Assembly: GCF_030730865.1 (NCBI RefSeq)
Contig: NZ_JAVALZ010000004.1
Coordinates: 124,001 to 188,000, forward strand
Direction: 5' to 3'
Source of the DNA: Uliginosibacterium sp. 31-16
GTDB lineage: Bacteria; Pseudomonadota; Gammaproteobacteria; Burkholderiales; Rhodocyclaceae
Length of the DNA stretch: 64,000 nt
In this document: one piece after another, positions 4,829 through 55,730 of the stretch
Position numbering within the stretch: the first letter of the stretch is position 1
Layout: the number at the start of each line of letters is the position of its first letter
The notes under the pieces: generated by a model
Database searches by the model: none
The model's input: the letters and a program-made list of their open reading frames with translations, nothing else
Told to the model about the DNA's origin: nothing
Made by a program: the position numbers and the translations under genes

Positions 4829-5152
4829 TCAGAACGGCAACTTCATGCCGGGCGGCAGACCCATGCCGGAGGTGAATCCCGCCATTTTCTCCGAGCTCGT
4901 GGCTTCGGCCTTGACCATGGCATCATTCAGGGCGGTGACAATCAGGTCCTCGAGCATGTCCTTGTCGTCCATGACGGCTTCGTTGATGGCCACGCGCTTG
5001 ACCTTGTGCGCACAGCTCATCGTCACCTTCACCGCACCGGCACCCGCCGTGCCTTCCACGTCCACGAGGGCCAGTGCGTCCTGTGCCTTTTTCATGTTGT
5101 CCTGCATCTGCTGGGCCTGTTTCATCAGGCCAGCAAGGCCGCCTTTCATCAT
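4829..5152 (-). CDS. ybaB: YbaB/EbfC family nucleoid-associated protein
   Basis: Small DNA-binding protein of 107 residues, almost always encoded between dnaX and recR. The N-terminal [22 protein letters not shown] helix and the C-terminal [12 protein letters not shown] tail are characteristic. The ATG at 5152 has AGGAG at 5160-5164 with a 7-base spacer and overlaps the dnaX stop (ATGA), implying translational coupling. Homologues bind DNA as dimers and are nucleoid-associated; a precise role is not settled. Confidence 0.94.
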
Positions 5153-6843
5153 TGCGAGTCTCCTAAAGGTTTTACTGAGGACTCCACCAGCGTCGCATCG
5201 CAACGCTCGATGAGCTCCTGCACAAAGGGGTCTGATTCAAGCGAGGCAACCGCCTCGGCATGACGATTCTGGCGCACTTCTTCATTGCGCTGGGCGGGGG
5301 TCTGGCTGGCGACCTCGCCGATATCGATATTCACGCGCACCGGCTGATCGAAATGCGCGGACAGCGCGTCCTGCAGCTTGCTGACATTCGACGCCATCAT
5401 CACCAGATGCTTGTGCGAAGGCGGCAGGCGCAGCTTGAGCACATTGCCCTGCAGATCCAGCAATTCGCAGTTCTGGGCCAGCTCACGCGTCATGCCGCCC
5501 AGCCCCGCGGCCACGATCATCGCATGCCAGTCCATGTCTGCCGCCAGCGCTGCGGCGGGCACCGCGACCGAAGGCTCATTCAAGACCCGCGCCGGGGGCG
5601 GATCTTCAGGCACACAGGCGGATGAAACAGGCGCAGCGGGCTTCTCCACAGGGGGGGTCTGAAGAACCACAGCGGGAGCGGCTGTCGCAGCAGGTCGCAC
5701 CACAGCGGCAGGCGCCGCCACAGGCACTCGCGGCGAAGTTGTGGCCACCCCGGCGCCCGGCGCCTCCGGCCGGAAGGCATGCAGGCGCAGCAGATTCATG
5801 GTGAAGCCGGTGTATTCGTCCGGCGCCAGGGCCAGCTCATCGCGGCCATGAATGGCAATCTGGTAAGCCAGCTGCAGGAATTCCGCGCCAAAGGCGGCAG
5901 CATACGGCGCCAGGCGCTCGCGCTCGAAATTGTCGGCAATCGCCTGCGGGGCGAACTGCATCAGGGCTACCCGATGCAGCAGCGTCGCAAATTCCTGCAA
6001 GGCGGATTCAAAGGAGAGACTGCGCGCTTCCATGGCATCCGCCACGGCGATCAGCGCACCGATGTCTTGCGCCTGCAGTGCATCGAGCAGCTCGAAAAGA
6101 TGATCCTCGCCAACCGTGCCGAGCATGTCACGCACGCCCTCTTCCTCAACCTTGCCCGCGCCATGCGCGATGGCCTGATCAAGCAGCGACAGCGCATCGC
6201 GCATCGAGCCGTTCGCGCCCTTGGCAATGTGACGCAGCGCGCCCGGCTCGAAGCTCACGCCTTCCTGGCCGAGGATGTTCGACAGATGCTCGACGATGTG
6301 CGTCTGCGGCATCTGCTTGAGGTTGAACTGCAGGCAGCGCGACAGCACCGTGACCGGAATCTTCTGCGGGTCAGTCGTCGCGAGGATGAATTTCATGTGC
6401 TCGGGCGGCTCTTCGAGCGTCTTCAGCATCGCGTTGAAGGCGTGCCCGGTGAGCATGTGCACTTCGTCGATCATGTAGACCTTGTAGCGCCCGCGCGACG
6501 GCGCGTAGGCCGCTTTTTCCAGCAGCGAAGCCATGTCATCAACGCCGCGATTGGAGGCCGCGTCCATCTCGACGTAATCGACGAAGCGCCCGCTATCGAT
6601 CTCGGTACAGGCTGCGCACACGCCGCAAGGCGTGGCGGTGATGCCGGTCTCGCAGTTCAGGCTCTTGGCGAGGATGCGCGAGATGGTGGTCTTGCCCACG
6701 CCGCGCGTGCCGGTGAACAGATAGGCGTGGTGCAGGCGCCCGGTGGTCAAGGCGTGCGTCAGCGCACGCACCACGTGCTCCTGGCCGACGAGGGTCTCGA
6801 AACTCTTGGGGCGCCACTTGCGGGCAAGGACCTGATAGCTCAT
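5149..6843 (-). CDS. dnaX: DNA polymerase III subunit gamma/tau
   Basis: Clamp-loader ATPase of the replicative polymerase, 564 residues. Visible: [21 protein letters not shown] at the start, Walker [10 protein letters not shown] near residue 45, a zinc module [16 protein letters not shown], Walker B with the DEVHML motif, and the sensor segment [17 protein letters not shown]. The middle (about residues 370-440) is a Pro/Ala/Val-rich linker, followed by a tau-type C-terminal domain. No A-rich slippery heptamer of the E. coli kind is visible at the expected position, so a separate gamma product by frameshifting is not supported. Start is at MSYQ; the upstream open extension is not conserved. 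Confidence 0.97.
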
Positions 6844-7008
6844 GGGCGGCAATTTTAGCAGCAGGGCGCCCACCTCCCGCGGGTATTTCTGCGCGGCCGG
6901 CAAACGGCATGATTGGCACGGCCTATCATGCCTGTTCAGGCAATCAATTGGACGCCATTCCGGGGGCCGGCCAGACTGCAGTCAGACCTTCAGACAAGGC
7001 AGGCGATC

Positions 7009-10423: not shown

Positions 10424-12034
10424 ATGTCGTTTGCTTCACTTGGCCTCAACGAGGCTCTCGTCGCCGCAGTAACCCGCGCCGGCTACACCACTCCCACTTC
10501 CGTTCAGGCTGAAGCCATTCCCGTCGCGCTGACTGGCGCCGACATGATGGTCTCTGCCGCCACCGGCAGCGGCAAGACTGCCGCCTTCATGCTGCCCGCA
10601 CTGGAGCGCCTGACCAAGGCCCCGGCCGCCAAGAGCATCGGCCCGCGCATCATGGTGCTGTGCCCCACCCGCGAACTCGCCCAGCAGGTCGCCAAGGCTG
10701 GCGTCACCTACGGCCGCTCGCTGCAGCGCCTGTCGGTCGTCACCGTCGTCGGCGGCATGCCCTACCCGGCCCAGCTCAAGCTGCTGCGCCAGCCGGTGGA
10801 TGTGCTGGTCGCCACCCCGGGTCGCCTGCTTGATTACATCAAGAGCGGCCGCATCGATTTCTCGCGCATGGAAATGCTGGTCCTCGACGAAGCTGACCGC
10901 ATGCTCGACATGGGCTTCATGGAAGACATCGAACAGATCGTCGCCGCCCTGCCCGCTGGCCGCCAGACCGTGATGTTCTCCGCCACCTTCGGCGGTGAAG
11001 TCGGTCGCCTTGCCGCCAGCATGCTCAACAAGCCGCAGCGCATCGAACTGGCCAACTCCACCGACAAGCATGCCGACATCGAACAGCGCGTGCACTGGGC
11101 CGACGATGCCGGTCACAAGAACCGCATTCTTGACCACCTGCTGGCCCAGCCGGACATGACGCAGGCCATCGTATTCACCGCCACCAAGCGCGACGCCGAC
11201 TGGCTGACTGAAACCCTGGCAGACAAAGGCTTTGCCGCAGCCTCCCTGCATGGAGACATGCCGCAGGCCAAGCGCAACCGCACCCTCACCGGCCTGCGCC
11301 GCGGCGACATCAAGGTACTGATCGCCACCGACGTGGCCGCACGCGGCATCGACGTGCCAGCGATCAGCCACGTGATCAACTACGGCATGCCGATGAAGCC
11401 GGAAGATTATGTGCACCGCATCGGCCGTACCGGTCGCGCCGGCCGCAGTGGCGTGGCCATCACCCTCGCGGTGCCGGCCGAGCGCTTCAAGGTGCGCGCC
11501 ATCGAGCGTTTCACCACCCAGCAGATTCCGGCCTCGGTGATCGAAGGGCTGGAGCCGCGCTTCAAACCCGAACAGCGTTCCAACAGCCGTGGCGGCTTCG
11601 GTGACCGGCCAAACCGTGGTGGTGGCGACCGCCCGCGTTCTTTCGGTGACAAGCCGCGCAGCTTTGGCGATCGCCCCCGTTCCTTCGGTGATCGTCCGCA
11701 GGGTGATCGCCCGCGTTCTTTTGAAGATCGCCCGCGCAGCTTCAGCGACCGTCCACGCACGGAAGGCGCCGCCCCGCGCAGCGCCGAGGAACGTCCGCGT
11801 TTTGACGACCGCCCGAGCTTCAACGAGCGTCCGCGTTCATTCGAGGATCGCCCCCGCAGTTTCAGCGATCGTCCGCGCTCGAATGCCGAGCGCAAGATGG
11901 GCGACCGCCCGCGCAGCTTTGCCGACCGCGACAGCCAGCCGCGCACCTTCTCGCGTGACGCAGCGCCGCGTCAGGACGAGCGTCGCAGCAGCGAAGGCCG
12001 CAGCACGTCCAGCCGTAACCGCTACGATTTCTGA
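10424..12034 (+). CDS. rhlE: DEAD-box RNA helicase, RhlE type
   Basis: ATP-dependent RNA helicase of 536 residues. Visible motifs: Q motif ([13 protein letters not shown] with YTTPTSVQ), motif [12 protein letters not shown], Ia [28 protein letters not shown], and [13 protein letters not shown]. After residue about 385 comes a tail of roughly 150 residues built on a (G/S/E)(D/E)(R/K)PRSF repeat, eight copies in all, rich in Arg, Asp, Ser and Phe. Tails of this sort in RhlE proteins bind RNA nonspecifically and are disordered. The start at MSFASLG matches family N-termini; no strong ribosome site is seen. RhlE proteins act in ribosome assembly and RNA turnover. Confidence 0.92.
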
Positions 12035-12084: not shown

Positions 12085-12163
12085 GCGTTTCAGCCGCGTA
12101 GAAACAGCCTCACCCATACCCTCCCGAAGTGCCGCTTCCTGCCTTGCTCTCAAGCCCCCTTGC

Positions 12164-12203
12164 CTGCACAGAGCCACCACACGCGGCTCTCCGGCCACCT
12201 GCC
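12164..12203 (+). repeat. Degenerate copy of the 40-base interspersed repeat
   Basis: The 3' half, CGCGGCTCTCCGGCCACCTG, closely matches the tail of units near 18.1 and 28.2 kb; the 5' half is poorly conserved. Single forward unit in the 240-base gap before purT. Confidence 0.4.
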
Positions 12204-14009: not shown

Positions 14010-14699
14010 ATGACACTCCCCCGCCTTCTCTGCAGCGCCCTGCTTGCCTTTTCAGCCACCCTTGCCCAGGCAGGGCTGCTGGACTCGTTCTCCGACAAGG
14101 ATGCCGCGGGAGGCATGCGCGAAGCACTTTCGCAAGGCGCCGAGCAGGCCGTGAAGATGCTTGGCAAGGAGGACGGCTTCCTCGGCAACCCCAAGGTGCG
14201 CATCGAGCTGCCGGGCAGGCTGCAGCAAGCCGAATCCGCGCTGCGCATGATGGGCCAGGGCAAGGCCATCGATGAACTCAAGACCAACATGAACCGCGCC
14301 GCCGAACAGGCCGTGCCGGAAGCCCGCGCGCTGCTGGTCGCCGCGGTGAAACAGATGAGCGTGCAGGACGTGAAGAACGTGCTGACCGGCGGCGAAGATG
14401 CCGCCACGCAATATTTCCGTGAAAAAACCAGCGCGCAACTCTCCACGCGCTTCCTGCCGATTGTCAGCAAGGTCACCGGCCGCCTGGCCGTTGCCCAGCA
14501 ATACAACCAGATCGCCGGCAAGGCTGCCGGCTTCGGCCTGCTCAAGGCGGAGGATGCCAGCGTGGAGCAATACGTGACCAAGCGCGCGCTGGATGGTCTC
14601 TATCTGATGATTGCCGAACAGGAACGCGAGATCCGCCAGAACCCGGCACAGGCGGCCGGCTCACTGGCGAAAAAGATTTTCGGGGCGCTGGGAAATTGA
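14010..14699 (+). CDS. DUF4197-domain exported protein
   Basis: 229-residue protein with a signal peptide (MTLPRLLCSALLAFSATLAQA) and an alpha-helical mature part typical of DUF4197: GLLDSFSDKDAAGGMREALSQ, a KVRIELPGRLQQAESALRMMGQ segment and a C-terminal LDGLYLMIAEQEREIRQNP. Likely periplasmic. The family is widespread in proteobacteria but its role is unknown. A GAAAGGAGCACAGC ribosome site precedes the ATG. It could be the last gene of purT-GNAT-DUF4197 (29-base gap) and is convergent with the exonuclease gene downstream. Confidence 0.85.
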   Translation: MTLPRLLCSALLAFSATLAQAGLLDSFSDKDAAGGMREALSQGAEQAVKMLGKEDGFLGNPKVRIELPGRLQQAESALRMMGQGKAIDELKTNMNRAAEQAVPEARALLVAAVKQMSVQDVKNVLTGGEDAATQYFREKTSAQLSTRFLPIVSKVTGRLAVAQQYNQIAGKAAGFGLLKAEDASVEQYVTKRALDGLYLMIAEQEREIRQNPAQAAGSLAKKIFGALGN

Positions 14700-18057: not shown

Positions 18058-18180
18058 CCGCAAGACCCGCCACCAGCAAGGCTTTCCAGTCCACATGTTG
18101 AAAAACCCTCACCCAGCGGGCCTCTCCGGCACACCTGCCTGAAGAAGCCCGCCGGATGCGGCTTCCCAGACACACCTCGC
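18058..18180 (+). repeat. Three tandem units of the 40-41-base interspersed repeat
   Basis: Units at 18058-18098, 18099-18139 and 18140-18180 are each exactly 41 bases. Shared elements: a start of the TGAAGA/TGAAAA kind, a CCGCC or CACCCAG block, a GCGGGCCTCTCC or GCGGCTTCCC block, and a CACACCTGCC-like end. All are in the forward orientation. They lie in the 380-base gap between zwf and the cellulase gene; the remainder of that gap (18181-18394) shows nothing beyond a probable cellulase promoter region. Confidence 0.6.
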
Positions 18181-18394
18181 TGCAAATTTTTCCCCCGACG
18201 GAAATCCGCTCCGGCCAGATCGGCACCGACAGAAGCGTCCCTCCGCCTGCATTCTGCAGTCCGGCTGCCGCAGACGACTGCCTGCAAGGCCGTTGATCCA
18301 CTACTGTTTTCAATCCAAAAAGAACATCCGGATAATCCCGGCAGCCCTGTCAGACCTGACGGGACAACAAAAAGAAAGTTCTCTGGAGACCACC

Positions 18395-19840
18395 ATGCAC
18401 CACACCTTGCGCAGCTTGCTGCTGGCAGGCAGCGTCCTGCTTTCCTCATCCGCCTGGGGCGCAACTGCCTTCGACATCACCAGCAAGATGATGCCGGGCT
18501 GGAATCTGGGCAACTCGCTCGACGCCACCGGCGGCGAAACCAACTGGGGCAACCCGGTCACCACCAAGGCGATGATCGACAAGGTCAAAAGCGCGGGCTT
18601 CAAGACCCTGCGTGTGCCGGTGAGCTGGGATGATTTCACCTCCGGCAGCGGCTACACCATCGCCAGCGCCCGCATGAACCGGGTGGAAGAAGTCGTCAAT
18701 TACGGTCTGGCCAATGGCATGTATGTGATCGTGAATGTGCATCACAACAATGGCTGGGAAGCGCCGACCTACGCCAACGAAGCCGCCGCCAAGGCCCGCC
18801 TGACTGCGCTCTGGCAACAGATCGCCACGCGCTTCAAGACTTACGACAATCACGTGATTTTCGAAGTCATGAACGAGCCGCGCTCGGGCGATGACTGGTG
18901 GGGCAACGACGAGCTATCCACCGTCGTAAACCGCCTGAACGCCGCAGCACTGAGCACCATCCGCGCCACCGGTGGCAACAACGCCAGCCGCCTGGTCATG
19001 CTGCCTTCTTATGTGGCCGGCGCGTACAACCAGCAGCTCGACCGGGTAAAAATGCCTGCCGACAGCATGGTTGCCTTATCGGTACACGCCTATCTGCCCT
19101 TCGATTTCTCGATGGAAGCTGGCGGCACCACGTCCTTCACCAACACCGCCATCCTTGATGAGCTGTTCGCCCGCCTGAACACCATGTTCGTTGCCAAAGG
19201 CGTGGCCGTGGTAATGGGCGAATGGGGCTCGACCAACAAGAACAATTACGCCGAGCGCATCAAACACGCCGAGTACTACGTCAAGGCAGCCGCGAAGGTG
19301 AAGATTCCGGTGATCGTGTGGGACAACAACGCCTACAACCCTGGCGCTGAAGCCTTCGGTCTGCTCAACCGCAGCACGCTGACCTGGACCTATCCGGAAG
19401 TCGTCACGGCCATCATGAAGGGCGCCGCATCAGCCGGCGGCAGCTCATCATCGAGCAGTTCATCGTCCAGTAGCTCGTCGTCCAGCAGTTCCTCAAGCAG
19501 CTCGTCGAGTAGCTCCTCAAGCAGTTCTTCGAGCAGTTCCTCGAGCAGCTCAAGCAGTTCGTCCTCAAGCAGTTCCGGCGGTGGCAGTGGCGTTGTGGCG
19601 AGCTTCACCATCAACAATGATTGGGGTTCGGGCTACTGCGCCAGCGTGAAACTTCAGAACACATCCAGTGCCCCGGTCGTCTGGGCAGCCAGCATCACGG
19701 TTCCGGGCCGCGTCAATCAGATGTGGAACGCAATCTATACGCAGACGGGCAGCACGGTCAGCCTCAGCGGCAACGGGTGGAACAAGACGCTGGCAGCAAA
19801 AGCCATCGACACTTCGATTGGGTTCTGCGCCAACCGCTAG
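18395..19840 (+). CDS. Secreted GH5 cellulase with poly-serine linker and CBM2-like module
   Basis: Endo-beta-1,4-glucanase of 481 residues. A signal peptide (about residues 1-22) leads into a GH5 catalytic domain: PGWNLGNSLDATGGETNWGN, VHHNNGW, acid/base Glu161 in EVMNEP, and nucleophile Glu276 in VVMGEWGS. Residues 350-394 are 45 consecutive serines, then GGGSG and a C-terminal domain of about 80 residues (INNDWGSGYCASVKLQNTSS ... GNGWNKTLAAKAIDTSIGFC) resembling CBM2 cellulose-binding modules. The ATG at 18395 has GGAG with a 7-base spacer. Poly-serine linkers of this type are known from Cellvibrio and Saccharophagus enzymes, so acquisition by transfer is possible. A strong terminator follows. 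Confidence 0.93.
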   Translation: MHHTLRSLLLAGSVLLSSSAWGATAFDITSKMMPGWNLGNSLDATGGETNWGNPVTTKAMIDKVKSAGFKTLRVPVSWDDFTSGSGYTIASARMNRVEEVVNYGLANGMYVIVNVHHNNGWEAPTYANEAAAKARLTALWQQIATRFKTYDNHVIFEVMNEPRSGDDWWGNDELSTVVNRLNAAALSTIRATGGNNASRLVMLPSYVAGAYNQQLDRVKMPADSMVALSVHAYLPFDFSMEAGGTTSFTNTAILDELFARLNTMFVAKGVAVVMGEWGSTNKNNYAERIKHAEYYVKAAAKVKIPVIVWDNNAYNPGAEAFGLLNRSTLTWTYPEVVTAIMKGAASAGGSSSSSSSSSSSSSSSSSSSSSSSSSSSSSSSSSSSSSSSSSSSSSGGGSGVVASFTINNDWGSGYCASVKLQNTSSAPVVWAASITVPGRVNQMWNAIYTQTGSTVSLSGNGWNKTLAAKAIDTSIGFCANR

Positions 19841-20452: not shown

Positions 20453-20458
20453 GCCCCT

Positions 20459-20578
20459 TGAAGACCCGCCCCCAGCAAGCCTCTCCCGGCATACCGCCCG
20501 GAGAGGCTTTGTTTTTGCGGCCATCCCGGCAGGCATGCTGAAGAAGTCCGCCCCATGCGGTGCTGCGGGCATACCGCG
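20459..20578. repeat. Interspersed repeat cluster: forward, overlapping reverse, forward
   Basis: Forward units lie at 20459-20498 (TGAAGACCCGCCCCCAGCAA...) and 20539-20578 (TGAAGAAGTCCGCCCCATGC...), exactly 80 bases apart. Between them a degenerate reverse unit (20488-20527) and the 11-base core GGCAGGCATGC (20528-20538) give the same head-to-head layout seen near 23.9 and 28.2 kb. Part of it forms a terminator (20477-20516). Confidence 0.62.
20477..20516 (+). terminator. Rho-independent terminator built from the interspersed repeat
   Basis: Ten-base stem AAGCCTCTCC / GGAGAGGCTT with a 13-base loop, followed by TGTTTTT. The two arms are the CTCTCC blocks of opposed repeat units. It ends the DUF4395 transcript, 25 bases after the stop. 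Confidence 0.72.
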
Positions 20579-22834: not shown

Positions 22835-23138
22835 GCGCCTGAACGCGCGCGCCGCGACGCATGCCCCGCCCTGATTGATCCGGCCAGAGTTTGTTTGAAG
22901 CCCGTTCGGCACGAACGGGCTTCAGGACGCAAGGCTCAAACTTGATCGGGCCGGATCTGTCGTCGCGCCGTCGGCACCCCCAGAATCGACCACTCGCCGA
23001 CAACACGCGAAAGTGACGAATTGTGCAGGTAGACTGCCCAAAAACGTCACTTCCTGTTGATCATGCGGGCTCCGGAAATACAGCCGTCGCACAGTTGATC
23101 TCAGGCAGCACACCGAGATGTCACGCGAAGGCCAAACC
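22835..23138. other. Intergenic gap with a perfect hairpin
   Basis: 304 bases without a credible gene. A 12-base perfect stem (GAAGCCCGTTCG / CGAACGGGCTTC, 22897-22923) with a 3-base loop is the only clear structure. The rest shows no obvious repeat copy; the promoter of the paralogue pair presumably lies in 22950-23120. Confidence 0.6.
22897..22923. terminator. Strong hairpin after the AsmA-like gene
   Basis: Perfect 12-base stem with a GCA loop, about 60 bases after the stop codon. It lacks a downstream T run on the plus strand, so it may end transcription weakly or protect the mRNA 3' end. Confidence 0.5.
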
Positions 23139-23450
23139 ATGATCAATTCCCTGAGAACCCTGTTGGGTATCCGCACCAAGCGCCAGCCACTCCCGATCAC
23201 GTCAGCCCCCAGGCCGGGCGCCAGCATCGTGAAAGGGGATTACCGGATCAAGACGAATCAACCCTGTGACGGCGAACTGTGGGACTGGCTGCTGCTGATG
23301 GGCTGGCGCGTTTCATCGGTGCGCAACGATCGTCGCGGCTACCAAGAGATGCCTGCCGACACGATCACCCGCCTCAAAGCCGCCAGCATCGAAAGCCGCT
23401 CTGCCGTACTCGATGCGCTGAGTGCAAAAGCCAGCAGGCAGGCCGCCTGA
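23139..23450 (+). CDS. Unrecognised small basic protein, first of a tandem paralogue pair
   Basis: 103-residue cytoplasmic-looking protein that I do not recognise. Features: a basic start (MINSLRTLLGIRTKRQPLPI), an aromatic-hydrophobic core CDGELWDWLLLMGWRVSSVR, then NDRRGYQEMP and a helical C-terminus. It shares about half its residues with the protein encoded immediately downstream, so the two arose by tandem duplication. GAAGG lies 7-8 bases before the ATG at 23139; an in-frame ATG at 23118 is less well supported. No signal peptide or membrane segment is seen. Confidence 0.72.
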   Translation: MINSLRTLLGIRTKRQPLPITSAPRPGASIVKGDYRIKTNQPCDGELWDWLLLMGWRVSSVRNDRRGYQEMPADTITRLKAASIESRSAVLDALSAKASRQAA

Positions 23451-23487
23451 AAATCCGACGCAAGCCGATACAGACCAGGACGCGACG

Positions 23488-23829
23488 ATGAAGAATTTTT
23501 TCCGGCGACTGCTCGGCATCCGGACCAAGCGCCGGGCGCTCCCGATCACCCCGGTGCCGCCGACGGGAACCACCATCACCCGGAACGGCTTCAAGATCAA
23601 GGTCACCCAGACCTGCAGCCCGGAATTGTGGGACTGGCTGCTGCTGTCAGGCTGGCGGGTCGTTCCGGTGCGGCATGATCGCCGCGCCGGCACCACCCTG
23701 CCGGATGCCGCCATGCACATGCTGAACGCCGCTGGCGTCGAGCAGCGGGAGCATGTGATGGGCACCCTGCTGTCCTCCGCAAACCGCTCCCGCAAGGCCA
23801 GCCCCGCAAGGGCTCCGGCACGGCGCTAA
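23488..23829 (+). CDS. Unrecognised small basic protein, second of the tandem paralogue pair
   Basis: 113 residues, paralogue of the upstream gene. Shared blocks are LLGIRTKR, LPIT, the ELWDWLLL core followed by GWRV and VR.DRR, and an AA..E.R helix. It differs by a longer, very basic C-terminus ending RKASPARAPARR. An AGGA lies about 9 bases before the ATG at 23488, and the 37-base gap to the first copy implies one transcript. Conservation of the W-D-W-L-L-L core between copies suggests both are functional. Role unknown; nucleic-acid binding is a guess from charge. Confidence 0.72.
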   Translation: MKNFFRRLLGIRTKRRALPITPVPPTGTTITRNGFKIKVTQTCSPELWDWLLLSGWRVVPVRHDRRAGTTLPDAAMHMLNAAGVEQREHVMGTLLSSANRSRKASPARAPARR

Positions 23830-23885
23830 GGCGCAGGCAGTAAAGCAACTCCTGCCTGCAAAGCCGCGCCTGACAAGCCTCTACA

Positions 23886-23975
23886 GCACGCATCCACGGA
23901 CATCGCCAGCTGGCACCACTCTTCAGGCATGCGCACTCAAGACGCCCGCCAGATGCGGCTTTACAAGCAGCTCGC
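23886..23975. repeat. Interspersed repeat pair in head-to-head orientation
   Basis: Reverse unit 23886-23925 (ends CACTCTTCA), an 11-base spacer GGCATGCGCAC, and forward unit 23937-23975 (TCAAGACGCCCGCCAGATGC...). Same architecture and spacer length as the pair at 28147-28237, though more degenerate. Lies between the convergent paralogue pair and the YqaA gene. Confidence 0.6.
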
Positions 23976-25016: not shown

Positions 25017-25727
25017 TTACTGAACGTCGAGAAGTTCCACTTCAAATACCAGCGTCGCATTCGGCGGAATCACGCCGCCGGCGCCGCGCGCGCCGTAGCC
25101 CAGCTCGGGCGGAATGATCAGCTTGCGCGTGCCGCCCACCTTCATGCCCTGCACGCCTTCGTCCCAGCCGGCGATGACGCGACGGCCGCCAAGCGGGAAG
25201 CTGAAGGGCTCGCCACGATCCTTGCTGGAGTCGAATTTCTCGCCGGTGGTGAGCCAGCCGGTGTAATGCACCGACACGTACTGACCTGCCTTGGCCAGCG
25301 CGCCCGTGCCGAAGATGCTGTCGTCGTAGGTCAGACCGGAGGCGGTGGTGACCGGATCGCGCATCGTCATGTCCAGCGCCGGCTCGATGCCGAGCAGCTC
25401 GACCTCGAAGACCAGCGTGGCATTCGGCGGAATCACGCCGCCCGCGCCTTCTTCGCCGTAGGCCAGATGCGAGGGAATCGTCAGCTTGCGCTTGCCGCCG
25501 ACCAGCATGCCCTGCACACCTTCGTCCCAGCCGGGAATCACGTGCCCACCGCCCAGCGGAAAGCCGAAGGGCTCGTCGCGATCGACGCTGGAATCGAATT
25601 TCTCGCCGGTGGTCAACCAGCCGGTGTAATGCACCTGCACGGAACGACCGGCCTGCGCCGCTTCGCCGTTGCCGACGACGAGGTCTTCATAGATCAGGCC
25701 GCTGGCCGTGGTGGTGGAATTGCTCAT
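25017..25727 (-). CDS. Double-domain FKBP-type peptidyl-prolyl isomerase
   Basis: 236-residue protein made of two FKBP domains (about residues 1-113 and 122-236). Each carries the same landmarks: [18 protein letters not shown] / [18 protein letters not shown], a GWDEGVQGM segment, and the terminal [19 protein letters not shown]. The near-identity of long blocks shows a rather recent internal duplication. No signal peptide, so the protein should be cytoplasmic. It accelerates proline isomerisation in protein folding. It lies 16 bases downstream of upp on the same strand. Confidence 0.93.
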
Positions 25728-26940: not shown

Positions 26941-28143
26941 ATGAGCTCTCCTGATTTGCAGCTTGCCCGCCGCACCGAACGCCTGAAGTCTTCTCTGGTG
27001 CGCGACATCCTTGCCGCCGCCGCCCGCCCCGGCATGATCTCTTTCGCGGGCGGGCTGCCCGCCGCCGACCTGATGCCGCAACTGCCGCTGGAAGCCACGG
27101 CAGCGCCGGCACTTTACCAGTACGGCACCAGCGAAGGCGAGCCAGCCTTCCGCACCGCGGTTGCGCACTGGATCGGGGAGACCGGCCTGCAGGTGACACC
27201 CGACCAGGTGCTGGCCCTGGCCGGCTCGCAGCAGGGGCTGGATTTTGCCGCCAAGCTGCTCATCGACGAAGGCACGCCGCTGCTCTGCGAAGGCCCGACC
27301 TATGTCGCCGCGCTGCAGGTATTCCAGCTTTTCGGGGCCGACATCGTGTGCGCACCGCTCGGCGCCGAAGGCCCCGATCTGGTCGCGCTCGAACACCTGC
27401 TGGCAACCAAACGTCCGCGCGCCGCCTACCTCATTCCCTGCTTCCAGAATCCGGGCGGCGCCTGCTACAGCGCCGCCGCCCGCGTCGCCGTGGCCGAACT
27501 GTTCGACCGCTACAACGTCATCCTGATCGAAGATGAGCCCTACCGCAGCGTGGCGCTGGATGTGGATCACCCGATGACGCCGATCTGCTCGCTGCTCAAG
27601 CGCGCGCCGTGGATCTATCTGGGCAGTTTTTCAAAGATCCTGTGGCCGGGCTGGCGCATGGGTTTCCTCGCCGCCCACCCGGCGCTGATGCCGCATCTGG
27701 TGCGCCTGAAGCAGGCGGCCGATCTGCACACGCAGCGCCCCGGTCAGGCCGCCGTGGCGCACTGGCTCAACAGCGACACGCGCGGCCGGGATCTGGAACG
27801 ATTGCGCGCCGGCTATCGCGTGCGCCGCGACGCCATGCAAGCGGCACTGGAGCGCCACTTCGGCGCCATTGCCGACTGGCAGATGCCGCGCGGCGGGCTG
27901 TTCTTCTGGCTGAAGCTGCGCGGTGAACTGCAGGCCACCCGTGCCATGCTCGACCGGGCGCTGGAGCAAGGCGTGGCCTTCATGCCCGGCGAAGCCTTTT
28001 TCGCCCAGCCCGCCGAAGGTCACCAGTACCTGCGCCTGAACTACAGCCGCGCCACACCGGAGGAGATGGAAAGCGGGCTGGCCACGCTGGCACGGTGCAT
28101 CCGTACTGCACAGGACCTGCAGAGCCGCCCCCAGCCTGCCTGA
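26941..28143 (+). CDS. PLP-dependent class I/II aminotransferase (2-aminoadipate/multi-substrate type)
   Basis: 400-residue aminotransferase of the MocR-like/LysN (Aro8) subgroup without a DNA-binding domain. Signs: MISFAGGLPAADLMP at the start, GSQQGLDFAAKLLIDEGTP, YLIPCFQNPGG, the PLP-binding YLGSFSKILWPGWRMG (Lys in SFSK) and FFWLKLRGE. Relatives act on 2-aminoadipate, aromatic or branched-chain amino acids; the substrate is not determined. Divergently transcribed from a MarR regulator that probably controls it. Interspersed repeats start 3 bases after the stop. Confidence 0.88.
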   Translation: MSSPDLQLARRTERLKSSLVRDILAAAARPGMISFAGGLPAADLMPQLPLEATAAPALYQYGTSEGEPAFRTAVAHWIGETGLQVTPDQVLALAGSQQGLDFAAKLLIDEGTPLLCEGPTYVAALQVFQLFGADIVCAPLGAEGPDLVALEHLLATKRPRAAYLIPCFQNPGGACYSAAARVAVAELFDRYNVILIEDEPYRSVALDVDHPMTPICSLLKRAPWIYLGSFSKILWPGWRMGFLAAHPALMPHLVRLKQAADLHTQRPGQAAVAHWLNSDTRGRDLERLRAGYRVRRDAMQAALERHFGAIADWQMPRGGLFFWLKLRGELQATRAMLDRALEQGVAFMPGEAFFAQPAEGHQYLRLNYSRATPEEMESGLATLARCIRTAQDLQSRPQPA

Positions 28144-28146
28144 GCA

Positions 28147-28237
28147 GCCAACCTGCCCGGAGAGGCTTGTCGCGCGCCAATCTTCAGGCAGGCATGCTGT
28201 AAACGTCCGCCAGACAAGGCTCTCCGGCATGCCTGCC
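28147..28237. repeat. Interspersed repeat pair, head-to-head, best-preserved copy
   Basis: Reverse unit 28147-28186 (40 bases), core GGCAGGCATGC (28187-28197), forward unit 28198-28237 (40 bases, ending GGCTCTCCGGCATGCCTGCC). Arms CCGGAGAGGCTTGTC and GACAAGGCTCTCCGG pair with one mismatch, and the core pairs perfectly with the forward tail GCATGCCTGCC, so two alternative hairpins are possible. It begins 3 bases after the aminotransferase stop. Confidence 0.7.
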
Positions 28238-28245
28238 GCGGATGG

Positions 28246-28275
28246 AAAAAAGCCGATCCTGTGATCGGCTTTTTT
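28246..28275. terminator. Bidirectional terminator between aminotransferase and the 116-residue gene
   Basis: Perfect 13-base inverted repeat AAAAAAGCCGATC / GATCGGCTTTTTT with a CTGT loop. Serves the plus-strand aminotransferase and the convergent minus-strand gene. Confidence 0.93.
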
Positions 28276-28800: not shown

Positions 28801-29538
28801 TCACCCCGCGCGCTGGCGGCGCGCCTCGAACAGACAGAGGCCCGAAGCCACCGACACATTGAGGCTCTCCACCGAACCCAGCATCGGAATCTTGGCCAGC
28901 TCGTCGCAGGTCTCGCGCGTCAGGCGGCGCAGGCCATCCCCCTCGGCCCCCAGCACCCAGGCCGTCGGCACCTTCTGGTCGATCTCGTAGATCGTCTTGG
29001 TGGCTTCACCGGCCGCGCCAACACACCACACGCCGGCGTCCTGCAACTCGCGCAGGGTACGCGCCAGATTGGTCACGACGATGTAAGGCACCGTATCGGC
29101 GGCACCACTGGCAACCTTCATGGCCGTGGCATTCAGGCCCACGGCGCGATCCTTGGGGGCGATCACGGCATGCACCCCCGCCGCATCAGCCACCCGCAGA
29201 CAGGCGCCGAGGTTGTGCGGGTCCTGAATGCCATCAAGCACCAGAAACAACGCATTTTCGGTCAGGTCTTCGAGGAGGTCCGACAGGTGCAGCACCTTGT
29301 GGCGCGGGTCGATCTTGGCGACCACGCCCTGATGCCGCGAAGTGCCGGCCATGCCGTCCAGACGCGCCGTGTCGGTCGGCATGATGCGCACGCCGGCGGC
29401 CTCGGCCTTGCTCAGCAGATCACGGGCGCGCGCATCGCCACGCTGGGCGGCGACGTGCAGTTCGAGGATGGCGTCCGGGTCGTGCTTGAGTTTGGCAGCA
29501 ACGGCATGAAAGCCATGAATGAAACGGGTCTCAGCCAC
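28801..29538 (-). CDS. rlmB: 23S rRNA (guanosine-2'-O-)-methyltransferase RlmB
   Basis: SpoU-type (SPOUT, knotted) methyltransferase that modifies G2251 of 23S rRNA. The 245-residue protein has an N-terminal substrate-binding domain (FIHGFHAVAAKLKHDPDAI), then LVLDGIQDPHNLGACLRVAD (motif 1), VLGAEGDGLRRLTRETCD (motif 2) and SLNVSVASGLCLFEARRQR (motif 3). It starts at a GTG (29538) and overlaps the end of rnr by 8 bases, as in other proteobacteria. Coupled translation is likely. Confidence 0.95.
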   Translation of the reverse strand: MAETRFIHGFHAVAAKLKHDPDAILELHVAAQRGDARARDLLSKAEAAGVRIMPTDTARLDGMAGTSRHQGVVAKIDPRHKVLHLSDLLEDLTENALFLVLDGIQDPHNLGACLRVADAAGVHAVIAPKDRAVGLNATAMKVASGAADTVPYIVVTNLARTLRELQDAGVWCVGAAGEATKTIYEIDQKVPTAWVLGAEGDGLRRLTRETCDELAKIPMLGSVESLNVSVASGLCLFEARRQRAG

Positions 29539-32308
29539 GCGGGCTTCCTTTCTTCTTCGATCCAGAGGCAGCGCCGCGAGCGGCGCCGGTATTGGTTTTT
29601 CGGGCAGGCTTGCTGGCCGATGAGGCTACGCGCGGCTTTCCAGACACCTTACCTGCAGAGGCAGGCGCAGCGCCACTCTTTGGCACGCTCTTGCCGGAAC
29701 CACCCAGCAAAGCCGCCTTGACGGTTTCGCGCGGCGAGCCTTTGGCCGGCACGCCGGCCAGATCGCGCCAGCTCACCGGCTCGTCTTCGCCAAAACTGGC
29801 GGCCGGCGCCGGGCGCTTGCTTTCGCGTAATGCCGGCTTTGCGACTTCGCGTGGAGTTTCACGCACCACGGCACGCGGTATTTCACGAGACCCCGCACGC
29901 GATGTCTCACGCCGCGGTTCGCGCTGACTGTCGCGTGCGGTCTTGCCCACACGTTCCGTCGGCCGCGCCCCGCCGGAGACGAGCTTGAAGTCGATCTTGC
30001 GCGACTCCAGATCTACCCGCACCAATTGCACGCTCACACGATCCGAGAGACGGAATTGCTGACCTGTGCGCTCACCGACCAGCGCATGACGAGCCTCGTC
30101 GAAGTGGAAATAGTCCGCGCCCAGATCGGAAATATGCACCAAGCCTTCGACGAACAAATCATCAAGGGTCACGAAGATACCAAAAGACGCGACCGAGGTG
30201 ACGATTCCGGCGTACTGATCGCCTACGCGGTCCTGCATGTAGAAACACTTGAGCCAGGTTTCCACGTCGCGGCTCGCTTCGTCGGCACGGCGCTCGGTCT
30301 GCGAGCAATGCACCCCGATGTCTTCCCAGATGCCGTTCTTGGCGGCAGACGCTGCATGCTTGACACTGGCTTCACGCGCAGCCTTTTCGCGGGCCTCGTT
30401 GGGCTTGGCGCCGCCCTTGCGTCGGCGCGTATCCTTGAGCAGCTCGACGGGCCCGGCACTCGGCTCATAGCGCGTTTTGGTGAGCACCGCCTTGATCGCC
30501 CGGTGCACCAGCAGGTCAGGGTAGCGCCGGATCGGTGAGGTGAAGTGGGTGTAAGCCTCGTAGGCCAGACCGAAGTGACCGACGTTCTCCGGGCTGTACA
30601 CGGCCTGCTGCATGGAGCGCAGCATCACCGTCTGGATCAGCTGGGCGTCCGGCCGATCCTTGATCTTGTCGACGACCTTGGCGAAATCGGCCGCCCGCGG
30701 CGAGTCACCGCCGCCCAGCCCCAAGCCGAACTCGGCGAGGAATTCACGCAGTTTGCCTAGCTTGTCGGCGGACGGACCTTCATGCACACGGTACAGCGAA
30801 GGCTGCTTGTGCTTCTGCAGGAATTCGGAGGCGCACACGTTGGCTGCCAGCATGCACTCCTCGATCAGGCGGTGCGCGTCGTTGCGGCGCTCCGGCACGA
30901 TGCGCTCGATCTTGCCGTCGTCGCCAAAGACCATCTTGGTCTCGACCGTCTCGAACTCGATGGCGCCGCGCTTGGCGCGCGCCTTGAGCAGGATGCGGAA
31001 CAGCACGTCGAGGTTTTCCAGATGCGGCAGCAGGGCTGCGTGCTCGGCGCGCAAGGTGTCGTCGAGCTGCCCTTCTTCGTTACCGTACAGCATCGCTGCG
31101 ACCTTGTTATAGGTCAGGCGCGCGTGCGAGAACATCACGCCGGGATAGAAACGGTAGGCCTTGATCTCGCCGGATACGTTGATCGACATGTCGCAGACCA
31201 TGCACAGGCGCTCGACCTGCGGGTTCAGCGAACACAAGCCGTTGGAGAGCTTCTCCGGCAACATCGGAATCACCCGGCGCGGGAAATACACCGAGTTGCC
31301 GCGCGCGAGACCTTCGGCCTCCAGCGCGCTACCAGGCGTTACGTAGTGACTCACGTCAGCAATCGCCACGATCAGGCGATAGCCCTTGCCCTGCTTCTCG
31401 CAGAACACCGCGTCATCGAAATCCTTGGCGGTCTCGCCATCGATGGTCACCAGCGGCAGCGAGCGGATGTCTTCGCGCCCCGGCGTCCAGTCTTTCTTGC
31501 GCACCACATCGGGCAGCTTCTTGGCTTCAGCCTTCACTTCGTCCGAGAACTCGAAGGGCAGATCATGTTTGCGCAACGCGATCTCGATTTCCATACCGTC
31601 GTCGGCGTAGTTACCCAGGGTCTCGACGATCTGGCCGATCGGCTGGCTATGCTGAGTGGGTTGCTGCAGCAATTCGACCGTGACGACCTGTCCGGCCTTG
31701 GGCTTGGTTTTGCCTCCCGGCGCCAGCAGGATGCCCTGACTGATGCGCCGGTTCTCCGGCAGCACCATCGCCACGCCGGCCTCCACCGTGACGCGACCAA
31801 CCACGCTGGTATTCGCCCGTTCCAACACCTCGATGACCTTGGCTTCGCGGCGCCCGCGCTGATCGACGCCCACGGCGCGCACCAGCGCACGGTCGCCGTG
31901 CAGCACTTCACGCATCGCACGCGGGCCGAGGAACAGGTCTTCCGAGCCATCATCCGGCACGAGAAAGCCGAAGCCGTCTGGATGGCCTTCGACACGTCCC
32001 GCAATGAGGTCAGCCTTGTCCGGCAGGATGTAGCTGCCGCGCCGATTGCGCATGAGCTGACCGGCACGCTCCATGGCGCCGAGACGACGCGCAAAGTGTT
32101 CATCTTCTTCCGCACGAATATCCAGCTCACCCGCCAGCTCTTCCGCACTCAGCGGGCAGCCTGCGTCTTCCAGAATCTGCTGGATGTATTCGCGCGAAGG
32201 CAGGGGGAATTCATACTTCTCTGCTTCGCGCTCAAAGAACGGATCGGCACGACGGATTTTCGACACGCGTGGTTTTTTCATTTTCTTCTGTTGTGGTACT
32301 TGACTCAT
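29531..32308 (-). CDS. rnr: Ribonuclease R
   Basis: Processive 3'-5' exoribonuclease of 925 residues able to degrade structured RNA. Order of domains: helix-turn-helix start, two cold-shock domains, RNB catalytic domain (TIDGETAKDFDDAVFCEKQG with the catalytic acidic cluster; HYVTPGSALEAEG; FPRRVIPMLPEKLSNGLCSL; HFTSPIRRYPDLLVHRAI) and an S1 domain (GIVTSVASFGIFVTLDDLFVEG). The last 150 residues are a basic, low-complexity tail rich in R, P, E, K and S with AREIPRAV/RETPREV-like repeats, longer than in E. coli. ATG at 32308; AAGGAC lies just upstream. Operon rnr-rlmB. Confidence 0.97.
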   Translation of the reverse strand: MSQVPQQKKMKKPRVSKIRRADPFFEREAEKYEFPLPSREYIQQILEDAGCPLSAEELAGELDIRAEEDEHFARRLGAMERAGQLMRNRRGSYILPDKADLIAGRVEGHPDGFGFLVPDDGSEDLFLGPRAMREVLHGDRALVRAVGVDQRGRREAKVIEVLERANTSVVGRVTVEAGVAMVLPENRRISQGILLAPGGKTKPKAGQVVTVELLQQPTQHSQPIGQIVETLGNYADDGMEIEIALRKHDLPFEFSDEVKAEAKKLPDVVRKKDWTPGREDIRSLPLVTIDGETAKDFDDAVFCEKQGKGYRLIVAIADVSHYVTPGSALEAEGLARGNSVYFPRRVIPMLPEKLSNGLCSLNPQVERLCMVCDMSINVSGEIKAYRFYPGVMFSHARLTYNKVAAMLYGNEEGQLDDTLRAEHAALLPHLENLDVLFRILLKARAKRGAIEFETVETKMVFGDDGKIERIVPERRNDAHRLIEECMLAANVCASEFLQKHKQPSLYRVHEGPSADKLGKLREFLAEFGLGLGGGDSPRAADFAKVVDKIKDRPDAQLIQTVMLRSMQQAVYSPENVGHFGLAYEAYTHFTSPIRRYPDLLVHRAIKAVLTKTRYEPSAGPVELLKDTRRRKGGAKPNEAREKAAREASVKHAASAAKNGIWEDIGVHCSQTERRADEASRDVETWLKCFYMQDRVGDQYAGIVTSVASFGIFVTLDDLFVEGLVHISDLGADYFHFDEARHALVGERTGQQFRLSDRVSVQLVRVDLESRKIDFKLVSGGARPTERVGKTARDSQREPRRETSRAGSREIPRAVVRETPREVAKPALRESKRPAPAASFGEDEPVSWRDLAGVPAKGSPRETVKAALLGGSGKSVPKSGAAPASAGKVSGKPRVASSASKPARKTNTGAARGAASGSKKKGSPRG

Positions 32309-48250: not shown

Positions 48251-50221
48251 ATGGCCGAGCGCATCCCGCACCCACTGATTTCCCTGTTCCCACGCACCGG
48301 CGTCTGGTTCTGGCGCCTGCCTTTGCTGGCGATCACCGCCCTGATCGCCATCGTCAGCTTCTTCGTGTGGTTCGGGCTCAGCCAGGAACGGGATGAACGT
48401 CGCGCCGCGCTGGTCAGCGATTCGCTGTGGATGGAGCAGAATCTGCGCTATCAGTTTGAAAGCACGGAAAACCAGCTGGCGCAGATCGGCAACGAATTTG
48501 GCGGCGGTGGCGAACTGCACTCGGAGCAAGCCCAGGACAAGGTCAGAGCCCTCCTGCAAGGCAACTCCGGCCTGAGCGCACTGCTCTGGCTCAATTCGGA
48601 AGGCACGATGCTCAGCACCCTGCCTGCCAGCGCAGCGCCGGTCAAACTGGCAGAAGACCATCCGATCGGTGTGCTGCGTGCTCGCACCCTGAACCGGCCA
48701 GCCTACACGCACCCCTTCCTGCAGCCGGATGGCACATACGCGATCGAGGTCGTCATGCCCGTTTTTGGCGCAAACGACTTCAATGGCTACGCCGTGGGGG
48801 TTTTCTCCTTGCCGCGCGTGATCAGCTCCCATGTCCCCTGGTGGTTTGCCGAACGCTACCGCCTTTCTTTCACTGACGCCGGCGGACTGGAAATTGCCAG
48901 CACCACCCAGGCCGGGGCCCTCAACGACGCCCAGGCCTTTGGCGTCACTTTTGAACGCATGGGCGGCCTTGGCATCCGTGTGAATGCCTATCGGGCTACC
49001 ACCCGCGTCATGCCTGCCATCGTGGTCATGGTGCTGGTGGGTTTTACCCTGATCATTACCTGGAGCCTGTGGATGCTGCGCAATCGCGTCCTGCGCCTGC
49101 AGGACACCGAAACCGCATTGCGCAGCGAACACGCCTTCCGCCTGGCCATGGAGAATTCGACCCTCATCGGCCTGCGCGCACGTGACTTGCAAGGGCGCAT
49201 CACCTACGTTAATGCGGCGTTTTGCCGCATGGTGGGCTGGAACAGCGATGAGCTCATCGGCTTGCGCCCGCCCATGCCATTCTGGCCAGATGGTGAGTCA
49301 GAACCCGCCCGGACTGATCGAGACGGCCTGACCAACACCCCGGCGGTTGAGATGCGCTACCAGCGCAAGAGCGGGGAGATTTTCGACGTCCTGATCTATG
49401 AGGCCCCGCTGATCGATGCCGACGGCCGTCACGCCGGCTGGATGGGCTCCGTCCTCGACATCACCGAGCGCAAGCGGGCCGAAGCGCTGGCCCGCGATCA
49501 GCAGGAACAGCTGGAAGCCACTGCACGGCTGGTCACCATGGGCGAAATGGCCTCCACCCTGGCCCATGAGCTGAACCAGCCGCTCTCCGCCATCACCAGC
49601 TACAGCGCGGGCTGCCTGAACGCACTCAAGGCGGGGCGCTACGACGAGAAACAATTCACCGACGTACTCGGCAAGATCAATCACCAGGGGCAGCGCGCCG
49701 GACGCATCATCCATCGAATCTATGGTTTCGTACGCCGCAGCGAATCGCGCCGCGAGCGCATGGATGTGAACGCAGCGGTCCTTGAAGCCACCGGCCTGCT
49801 CGAGACGGAAACCCTGCGCCGCAAGGTCCGCCTGCAGATCGAGCTGGGCATGGACCTGCCGGCCATCATGGGCGACCGGACAATGATCGAGCAGGTCATG
49901 GTGAACCTGCTGCGCAACGGCATGGACGCCATGAAGCACACCCCGGAAAGTCAGCGGGTGTTGCGCGTCACCAGCGAAGCGCATGGCGACGGCGTGCGCC
50001 TGTCCGTGAATGATCACGGCGCCGGGATTTCGCCGGAAATCGCCGGCCGCCTGTTCGACTCCTTCTTCACAACCAAACCCGAAGGCATGGGCATGGGCCT
50101 GAAGATCTGCCGCTCGATCGCCGAGCAGCACAACGGCCGCCTGTGGTTTGAGCCCGGCCCCCATGGCGGCACCACCTTCTACCTCCAGTTGCCGGTTGGC
50201 GAAGAAGAAGTCAGCGCCTGA
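48251..50221 (+). CDS. Orphan PAS-domain sensor histidine kinase
   Basis: 656-residue membrane kinase. Two membrane helices (about residues 20-43 and 254-276) bracket a periplasmic sensor domain of roughly 210 residues, Cache-like in appearance. After them come a PAS domain (LAMENSTLIGLRARDLQGRI; VLDITERKRAE), the HisKA phospho-acceptor His439 in TLAHELNQPLSAI, and an HATPase domain (VMVNLLRNGMDAM; NDHGAGISPEIAGRLFDSFF; TTKPEGMGMGLKICRSI). It resembles DctB/FixL-type kinases. No response-regulator gene is adjacent. It overlaps the 3' end of convergent tilS by 11 bases. Confidence 0.9.
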   Translation: MAERIPHPLISLFPRTGVWFWRLPLLAITALIAIVSFFVWFGLSQERDERRAALVSDSLWMEQNLRYQFESTENQLAQIGNEFGGGGELHSEQAQDKVRALLQGNSGLSALLWLNSEGTMLSTLPASAAPVKLAEDHPIGVLRARTLNRPAYTHPFLQPDGTYAIEVVMPVFGANDFNGYAVGVFSLPRVISSHVPWWFAERYRLSFTDAGGLEIASTTQAGALNDAQAFGVTFERMGGLGIRVNAYRATTRVMPAIVVMVLVGFTLIITWSLWMLRNRVLRLQDTETALRSEHAFRLAMENSTLIGLRARDLQGRITYVNAAFCRMVGWNSDELIGLRPPMPFWPDGESEPARTDRDGLTNTPAVEMRYQRKSGEIFDVLIYEAPLIDADGRHAGWMGSVLDITERKRAEALARDQQEQLEATARLVTMGEMASTLAHELNQPLSAITSYSAGCLNALKAGRYDEKQFTDVLGKINHQGQRAGRIIHRIYGFVRRSESRRERMDVNAAVLEATGLLETETLRRKVRLQIELGMDLPAIMGDRTMIEQVMVNLLRNGMDAMKHTPESQRVLRVTSEAHGDGVRLSVNDHGAGISPEIAGRLFDSFFTTKPEGMGMGLKICRSIAEQHNGRLWFEPGPHGGTTFYLQLPVGEEEVSA

Positions 50222-55614: not shown

Positions 55615-55730
55615 AGACCCGCATAGGGCGTATCTCTCCAGCCAGCCTGCCTGAAGAACGGCGCTACACGCGGGCCTCCAGCCATGCCGCCTGGAGAGCA
55701 AGCATGCACGCGCCTTTGCAGACAGGCATG
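55612..55730. repeat. Interspersed repeat cluster after folA: two forward units and a reverse unit
   Basis: Forward units 55612-55651 (TGAAGACCCGCATAGGGCGT...) and 55652-55691 (TGAAGAACGGCGCTACACGC...) are exactly 40 bases each, in tandem. A reverse unit (55681-55720) overlaps the second and ends in TTTGCA, followed by a core-like GACAGGCATG. Arms CTCCAG and CTGGAG form a hairpin. The first unit starts on the folA stop codon. Confidence 0.66.

Follow-up and report, generated by a model that had tools for sequence, protein, structure and literature searches.

Modular 71- to 111-nt palindrome arrays dispersed over the chromosome of Uliginosibacterium sp. 31-16: possible binding sites that evolve in place

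Results

The element behind the aminotransferase gene

The window, by which we mean the whole 64-kb stretch of DNA analysed here, contains a gene for a PLP aminotransferase whose 3' end runs into an element composed of three imperfect 31-nt palindromes at an exact 40-nt pitch. The features of this locus are as follows (strand is given where it was assigned).

26941 to 28143, + strand: PLP aminotransferase gene (Aminotran_1_2), with its 3' end within unit 1
28117 to 28227: complete three-unit site, 111 nt, scoring 76.6 bits with the 111-nt model
28117 to 28147, - strand: unit 1, 31 nt, CTGCAGAGCCGCCCCCAGCCTGCCTGAGCAG, which includes 27 bases from the 3' end of the aminotransferase ORF (8 codons and the TGA stop)
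28148 to 28156: spacer 1, 9 nt, placed on the basis of the exact 40-nt pitch
28157 to 28187: unit 2 (middle), 31 nt
28188 to 28196: spacer 2, 9 nt
28197 to 28227, + strand: unit 3 (outer), 31 nt, ending in AAGGCTCTCCGG
28246 to 28275: intrinsic-terminator-like hairpin with T-run, separate from the site, read from the sequence

The consensus of the outer unit across the family is CTGAAGAnGnCCGCCnGAnGCGGCTCTnCAG. A preliminary description of this locus had drawn the element from 28147 to 28237 and had it begin 3 bases after the stop codon. The family model moves these limits to 28117 and 28227: what had been described corresponds to unit 2, unit 3 and a tail that resembles a spacer, and unit 1 has 27 bases, the TGA among them, in common with the ORF, so that the element begins within the aminotransferase gene. 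Several other points of that description are borne out by the letters themselves. A single mismatch interrupts the pairing of the outer arms, CCGGAGAGGCTTGTC (28157-28171) with GACAAGGCTCTCCGG (28213-28227); the core GGCAGGCATGC (28187-28197) and the tail GCATGCCTGCC (28227-28237) are exact reverse complements; a separate terminator-like hairpin does follow the element; and the reported recurrence at 23.9 and 20.5 kb corresponds to the three-unit sites at 23856-23966 and 20458-20568. The 2 competing RNA folds that had been proposed are possible on paper, but the fold is unremarkable when compared with dinucleotide shuffles (z of -1.65 for 28117-28227 and -1.87 for 28147-28237, with 12/200 and 11/200 shuffles as good or better, respectively). 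A search of the window with Rfam 15 at gathering score detected an SRP RNA and one tRNA only, and the element was without a match. DNA homology of the aminotransferase locus with 6 congeners ends at window position 28103 or earlier.

Other sites and repeats in the window

The remaining matches to the family models within the window, which carry no assigned strand, are listed below.

5579 to 5689: three-unit site, 51.8 bits, within gene 5149-6903 (- strand); the segment aligned with it in congener G005 has nearly the same length (598 vs 607 nt)
12124 to 12194: two-unit site, 50.2 bits, intergenic
14065 to 14135: weak two-unit match, 24.1 bits, within a gene; may be chance
18059 to 18169: three-unit site, 74.5 bits, intergenic
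20458 to 20568: three-unit site, 72.8 bits, intergenic; its internal terminator hairpin aligns in place with congener G002
23856 to 23966: three-unit site, 80.0 bits, intergenic
29573 to 29643: two-unit site, 37.3 bits, at the 3' end of gene 29531-32281 (- strand)
50389 to 50499: three-unit site, 54.8 bits, within the called gene 50211-51515 (- strand)
55611 to 55721: three-unit site, 76.1 bits, in a convergent gene gap, with a 4-nt overlap with a stop codon
61966 to 62036: weak two-unit match, 24.0 bits, within a gene; may be chance

The intrinsic terminator at 20476-20518, whose position is shared with congener G002, sits within a site of the family and fits its pattern. The 20.7-kb segment from 29644 to 50388 is free of sites. 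Much of it (32.5-48.2 kb) is a block of core genes, of the purA, hflK, hflX, der, bamB, hisS and rlmN types by Pfam, which matches all 7 congeners; an acquired island was rejected on this ground as the cause of the site-free stretch.

Repeats of other kinds were also seen. A 300-nt segment in window 25028-25690 recurs 363 nt further on with 79% identity; 2 adjacent small ORFs at 23118-23829 are apparently tandem copies that have diverged (71-72% identity between segments at a distance of 349 nt); and a 12- to 15-nt repeat at 19438-19576, within ORF 18293-19840, apparently encodes a serine-rich linker. In a stretch from elsewhere in the source genome, L044, positions 11103-11204 belong to another repeat family with many 79-95% copies in that genome, and positions 5413-5544 to yet another, of which congeners G003, G004 and G007 have many copies.

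Copy number and geometry across the genome

We surveyed 864 kb (22%) of the source genome, G000 (3.90 Mb, 8 contigs), as the window, at C4:124001-188000, plus 40 further stretches. The position matrices were refined on the very sequence that they were then used to search. At ≥14 bits they detected 97 sites of three units (111 nt) and 57 of two units (71 nt), and a Markov null of equal length (864 kb) gave 0. The genome-wide recurrence in inverted pairs that the preliminary description had implied is confirmed by 154 sites, and the picture of a few copies without excess over background, which would have spoken against it, fails. It should be noted that 23 of the 154 score below 30 bits and may include chance matches; none of the 154 scores between 14 and 18 bits. 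Scaling gives an estimate of 695 sites per genome, or 697 if the window is left out, and a single copy used as BLAST query returned 54 matches at E≤10 from the genome. A nearly independent test utilized a model of the single unit, trained on the window and 32 other loci (2 of the 32 overlap the test sample). This model gave 64 matches of ≥12 bits in a 400-kb sample and 0 in each of 5 Markov-1 replicates, which excludes chance.

The 864 kb contain 367 units in 202 arrays, of which 87 span three units, 33 two and 82 one, and none is longer; 58 arrays, 54 of them single units, lie outside the full-site calls. The pitch of the arrays is rigid. Around 685 anchors (both strands, units doubled) there were 245 and 239 partners at -40 and +40, respectively, vs at most 7 at -39 or +39; pairs in which both units score ≥8 bits numbered 125 at 40 nt and 87 at 80 nt, whereas 40 other offsets averaged 0.3 such pairs and never had more than 4. 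At both distances the paired units stand head-to-head. A MAFFT alignment of 60 copies contained no gap, and A7 was invariant.

Placement relative to genes, and spacing

We used our own gene calls (786 genes, 86.6% coding) to place the sites. Among three-unit sites, 61 are intergenic, 19 lie over the stop-codon end of a gene, 2 over a start end and 15 inside genes; the corresponding numbers for two-unit sites are 18, 11, 1 and 27. Random 111-mers fall inside genes in 76% of cases and between them in 8%; of the sites, 79/154 are intergenic and 30/154 are at stop ends. The type of gap matters as well, in that sites occupy 46/76 convergent, 54/256 tandem and 3/74 divergent gaps of ≥60 nt, with one site in each of 110 gaps and 2 sites in a single gap. 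Sites lie at a median of 13 nt from a 3' gene end, and 11 of 32 overlaps have the last base of the stop codon at position 4 of the site. Terminator-like hairpins were not commoner in gaps with a site than in gaps without one (23/43 vs 18/28 for convergent, 7/46 vs 56/191 for tandem gaps), and inspection by eye of the genes flanking sites in divergent gaps suggested no regulator.

The sites are also spaced more evenly than class-matched placement would give (CV 0.679 vs 0.855; 0/500 simulations as even), with a mean gap of 4.2 kb between sites inside stretches. For the 42 inside-gene sites alone, the nearest-site distance was suggestive of the same (p 0.08). These inside-gene sites score lower, with a median of 41.8 bits vs 74.6 bits for intergenic sites.

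Sequence constraint, folding and helical phasing

The three-unit family carries 73.9 bits per 111-nt site (95 copies), and conservation fades within a few bases of either end. Pairwise identity among the 95 copies (4465 pairs) has a mean of 0.51 and a maximum of 0.73, and independent columns would give 0.517; near-identical copies, of the kind that form REPIN-style seed-word populations, and subfamilies were absent from these 95 sampled copies. Summed mutual information was 406 vs 376 for permuted columns (sd 1.8), and the excess comes mainly from neighbors no more than about four bases apart. We observed no covariation in the G000 sites: a unit hairpin, a three-way fold and a long hairpin were all at or below shuffles, and a scan of every column pair yielded one pair with z>3.5, its two columns separated by three bases.

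Compared with column-permuted controls, three-unit sites have slightly more stable folds (-47.3 vs -44.7 kcal/mol, p 0.005), as do sites of genome G302, described below (-31.2 vs -26.6, p 0.008), and two-unit sites show no such excess (p 0.54). For the long hairpin in G302, pairing and covariation are slightly above shuffles, 37/500 and 33/500 of which reach them, and individual sites, such as that at 20458, hold real hairpins. RNA structure as the main constraint is nevertheless rejected, given that G000 lacks covariation despite the weak folding excess and the slight covariation in G302. The AT profile of 3 site sets has its strongest period at 10-10.25 bp (a raw profile, with no null alongside), as would be expected of bent or wrapped DNA.

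Words of the motif rarely occur by themselves. Of CTGAAGAGCC, 1 of 42 copies lies outside sites, and of GCGGCTCTTC, 4 of 52; for the 9-mer GCCTGAAGA the number is 26 of 112. After masking of the sites, no motif word was among the most over-represented words of the sequence. A short uptake word was rejected as an explanation because the ten-base motif words are nearly absent outside arrays.

Origin by substitution or insertion

Inside genes we counted 28 matches of ≥30 bits in the real sequence, vs 9 summed over three synonymous-codon shuffles. In 228 kb of relatives' loci there were 0 matches of ≥14 bits. The gene that we take, from its look, to be SMC-like contains 2 sites, of 45.1 and 37.8 bits, and the homologous DNA of 5 congeners scores from -39.6 to +0.8; the protein segments of G005, G002, G001, G006 and G003 align gap-free across both sites. 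(The gene names MobA, GloB, acyl-CoA ligase and DnaX were likewise assigned from look, and are presumptive.) The site at L044:5747 scores 79.0 bits, and the best nearby places in the near-equal-length genes of G002 and G005 score -39.6 and -38.4; that at L044:15325 scores 42.8 bits, vs 15.0 in G002, where the alignment is gap-free, and -4 to -9 in 3 others. Homologues that are gap-free or of near-equal length at the tested coding sites indicate that the site was gained by substitution and not by insertion of a unit. This in-place origin is clear for the 2 SMC-like sites, L044:5747 and L044:15325; the sites at window 5579 and L044:11676 aligned with gaps, and inside-gene sites beyond the aligned loci were viewed as translations only. 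Palindromic in-frame insertion of the Rickettsia type, which adds residues to ORFs, was rejected on the basis of the gap-free homologues in 5 congeners for 2 sites.

The intergenic picture is mixed. The excess length of site-bearing gaps in G000 over their orthologous gaps has a median of 51 nt (from -257 to +231; 12 comparisons, 8 gaps), and gaps without a site have a median length difference of 0 (279 comparisons). At the 12124 site, the distance between the flanking aligned blocks is 28 nt in G005 and 114 nt in the source genome, or 184 vs 242 nt if measured by projected gene ends. Some insertion would explain the longer site-bearing gaps.

Occurrence in relatives

Whole-genome searches were done with models of the sites; the row counts given here are lower bounds with both strands counted (123, 9 and 41 rows scored per genome). 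The 111-column model gave at least 123 rows in G000 (123 of the 123 scored), all with E≤1.3e-16. Among congeners it gave no match in G001, G003 and G007, one weak row each in G004 and G006, at least 5 rows at three places in G002 and at least 15 rows at nine places in G005; G026, from another family, had at least 4 weak rows. A dense lattice of sites was present in none of the 7 congeners searched. One G005 site, L219:8592 (53.6 bits), faces the G000 site L256:2692 (79.0 bits) between the same flanks with 58% identity, at a locus where G001, G002 and G003 have no site; another, L220:14978 (66.2 bits), has only the right-hand flank, and 45% identity, in common with L244:1381 of G000 (73.2 bits). 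Matches occurred in 8 of 399 genomes of the order, G000 counted. A pattern scan over genome contigs added six single matches in unrelated bacteria.

G302, which belongs to another genus of the same family, has its own dialect at the same pitch: 22 two-unit sites of ≥18 bits in 400 kb (20 stretches, 5 of them chosen to contain known matches), with a null of 0. Twenty of these sites align gap-free, and A7/A47 are common to G302 and G000. A model of this dialect had matches in 7 of 121 genomes of the family and none in 114, with at least 41 rows each in G302 and G476 (41 of 41 scored), at least 39 in G442, 37 in G000, 22 in G493 and 13 in G429, and at least 1 in G012. G476, G442, G493 and G429 represent 2 genera beyond that of G302 and are known here from model matches alone. 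In the aggregate, the distribution is patchy: the system occurs in four genera, and genomes that have it give many matches. The possibility that G002 holds a lattice of similar density in another dialect was rejected by a de novo seed test (3000 seeds per genome, ≥40/71 identical bases), in which the best seeds had 76 partners in G000, 18 in G002 and 6 in G005; G302 gave 89 partners, but its top seeds were GC-biased and outside the lattice, so that the test was not clean there.

RAYT-type genes

A search of the whole genome with PF01797 detected 2 RAYT-type genes, both above cut-off for NF047646. One has a 52.6-bit site over its stop codon, and the other a 72.1-bit site 224 nt to its 3' side. 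Base rates over 777 genes are 9% for a site within 10 nt and 19% for a site within 230 nt, and the occurrence of sites 3' of both RAYT-type genes is therefore no more than suggestive. Each 3.3-kb RAYT locus contains a single site, on the 3' side only. The second of these genes (L032:960-2340) has GTAG-type repeats, GTAGGGTGCGCATTGCGCACC, on both sides, and seems to have an ordinary REP-like family of its own.

Discussion

The preliminary description took REP/REPIN elements, moved by RAYT transposases, as the closest known analogy. The part of this analogy that holds is that of a genome-wide, mostly intergenic family of head-to-head palindromes; mobility by RAYT is not supported, given tested coding sites that formed by substitution, no near-identical copies, subfamilies or G000 covariation, and three units in 87 of 202 arrays. 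The corresponding explanation, that the sites are an old and decayed REP/REPIN-like family whose 71- and ~110-nt elements were once spread by RAYT into 3' intergenic DNA and have since come under constraint, is in our opinion unlikely, although it stands ahead of an uptake or transfer signal and of a gyrase site among the alternatives that remain, at least as an origin of the intergenic sites. PMC3116915 reports REPIN doublets of 71 and 110 bp in Pseudomonas, describes compensatory changes as common and finds REP triplets rarer than expected. The REPINs of Pseudomonas fluorescens resemble our sites in their hundreds of copies, inverted pairs, mostly extragenic location, presence of RAYT-type genes and lengths of 71 and ~110 nt, the last of which counts in favor of this explanation; they differ in that three-unit arrays are common here, that near-identical copies and compensatory changes were not found, and that tested coding copies were made in place. 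Possibly, doublet distances so close to our 71- and 111-nt forms reflect the same 40-bp module. REP families, as characterized in PMC3733652, lie in convergent or unidirectional gaps near 3' ends, supply stop codons and include some intragenic copies, and our sites match on all of these counts, which again favors the REP origin. In particular, the GTAG- and CGTC-tagged families of that source are similar in lying 3' of genes in convergent and tandem gaps, in supplying the stop codon, in being patchy among species and in having some copies inside genes, and differ from ours in the rigid 40-bp pitch, the absence of a covarying stem and tested intragenic copies that are not insertions. The sites 3' of both RAYT-type genes, the longer site-bearing gaps, the weak folding excess and the weak covariation in G302 also favor a REP/REPIN origin. 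It is opposed by the in-place origin of the tested coding sites, by a pitch that hardly changes among copies without near-identity or subfamilies, by the lack of covariation in G000, and by RAYT loci of which one is flanked by GTAG-type repeats and neither has a second site within 3.3 kb.

Uptake sequences are thought to accumulate by molecular drive, and sites that favor DNA uptake or packaging could have accumulated in place in the same manner. Such a transfer or uptake signal, which we consider quite improbable, would account for the in-place origin and even spacing and for the lower scores of coding copies, and the patchy distribution and second dialect recall the dialects of DNA uptake sequences (DUS) of Neisseriaceae described in PMC3630211, which likewise accumulate in place and have coding copies. 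However, the uptake sequences given there are words of 10 and 12 bases, unlike a modular array of 71-111 nt whose ten-base words rarely occur alone outside arrays of 2 or 3 units, and drive should leave partial sites, whereas 0/154 sites score 14-18 bits. A still smaller chance attaches to strong, species-adapted loading sites for gyrase or another wrapping topoisomerase, which would remove positive supercoils behind genes. The E. coli gyrase motif is symmetric over 130 bp with GC phasing of 10.75 bp, and is described as degenerate, in PMC6379681; our sites share with it a long symmetric motif (~110 bp), helically phased composition (AT, at 10-10.25 bp) and, by their enrichment in convergent gaps, a location suited to action behind genes. 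They differ in holding far more information (74 bits), in having modular 71- and 111-nt forms on a rigid 40-bp pitch, ill-suited to one fixed wrap, and in being patchy, whereas gyrase is universal. We regard a transcribed RNA element (a terminator, attenuator or 3' mRNA stabilizer) as very improbable: the 3' location, the conserved terminator within the 20458 site and the small folding excess would agree with one, but no covariation emerged from any of the three folds or when every pair of columns was scanned, the element at 28117-28227 has its own separate terminator, and gaps with a site are not enriched in terminator-like hairpins. The beta-proteobacterial repeat element BRE is similarly ~90 bp long and intergenic with some copies in genes, and is set apart by its description in PMC3110155, which gives ≤29 copies per genome in variable tandem arrays, compared with ~700 copies and ≤3 units here.

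The explanation that we prefer, and hold at about even strength on the evidence of sequence comparisons, is that of a long site for cooperative protein binding that has been selected in place. The rigid pitch, the high information without subfamilies or covariation, the AT phasing, the origin by substitution and the lower intragenic scores all fit a duplex site for a cooperative protein, and we infer from them the binding, the cooperativity and the job of a predicted protein. Thus, the ~700 long sites would be recognized as duplex DNA by a putative protein, which would bind two or three 31-bp palindromic units cooperatively, with a spacing of 40 bp and dyads every 20 bp, and would probably bend or wrap the DNA; the recognition sequence may drift, giving another dialect in another genus. 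Our best guess as to its role is a transcription-unit boundary (through supercoils, a roadblock or nucleoid anchoring), since convergent and 3' gaps are filled nearly always once, divergent gaps are avoided and conserved genes are overwritten. The observations would fit maintenance of the sites by selection or by drive. Several points count against the binding-site explanation: 74 bits at ~700 places is far above what is needed for finding a site, the window has a 20.7-kb segment free of sites, site-bearing gaps exceed their orthologous gaps in length, three-unit and G302 sites have a slight folding excess, and the long hairpin in G302 has slightly raised pairing and covariation. An essential general function is unlikely, given that the lattice is absent as a dense system in 7 congeners and that 114 of 121 genomes of the family lack a match to the G302 model.

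More tentatively, and at somewhat less than even confidence, we suggest that this chromosome-wide lattice of modular sites (71-111 bp, ~74 bits) for a predicted protein, evolving in place in genus-specific dialects, mutually spaced and overwriting silent or replaceable positions of conserved genes, is a chromosome-marking system that serves as boundary, anchoring or self-recognition. No description of such a family or system was found in the literature searched, which left most subscription papers outside its coverage.

The usual explanation for palindromes scattered over a bacterial genome is that they are miniature mobile elements or hairpins of RNA. The family described here has the look and the 3' placement of REP elements, yet its tested coding sites originated by point substitution and its columns show no pairing constraint. 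In-place single-base changes within conserved genes point to a long predicted binding site rather than to a jumping repeat. If this is true, selection or drive can act on hundreds of 100-bp nucleoprotein sites in a bacterial chromosome, and it could be asked directly of other "REP" families, the 71/110-bp REPINs among them, whether they too are lattices of binding sites.
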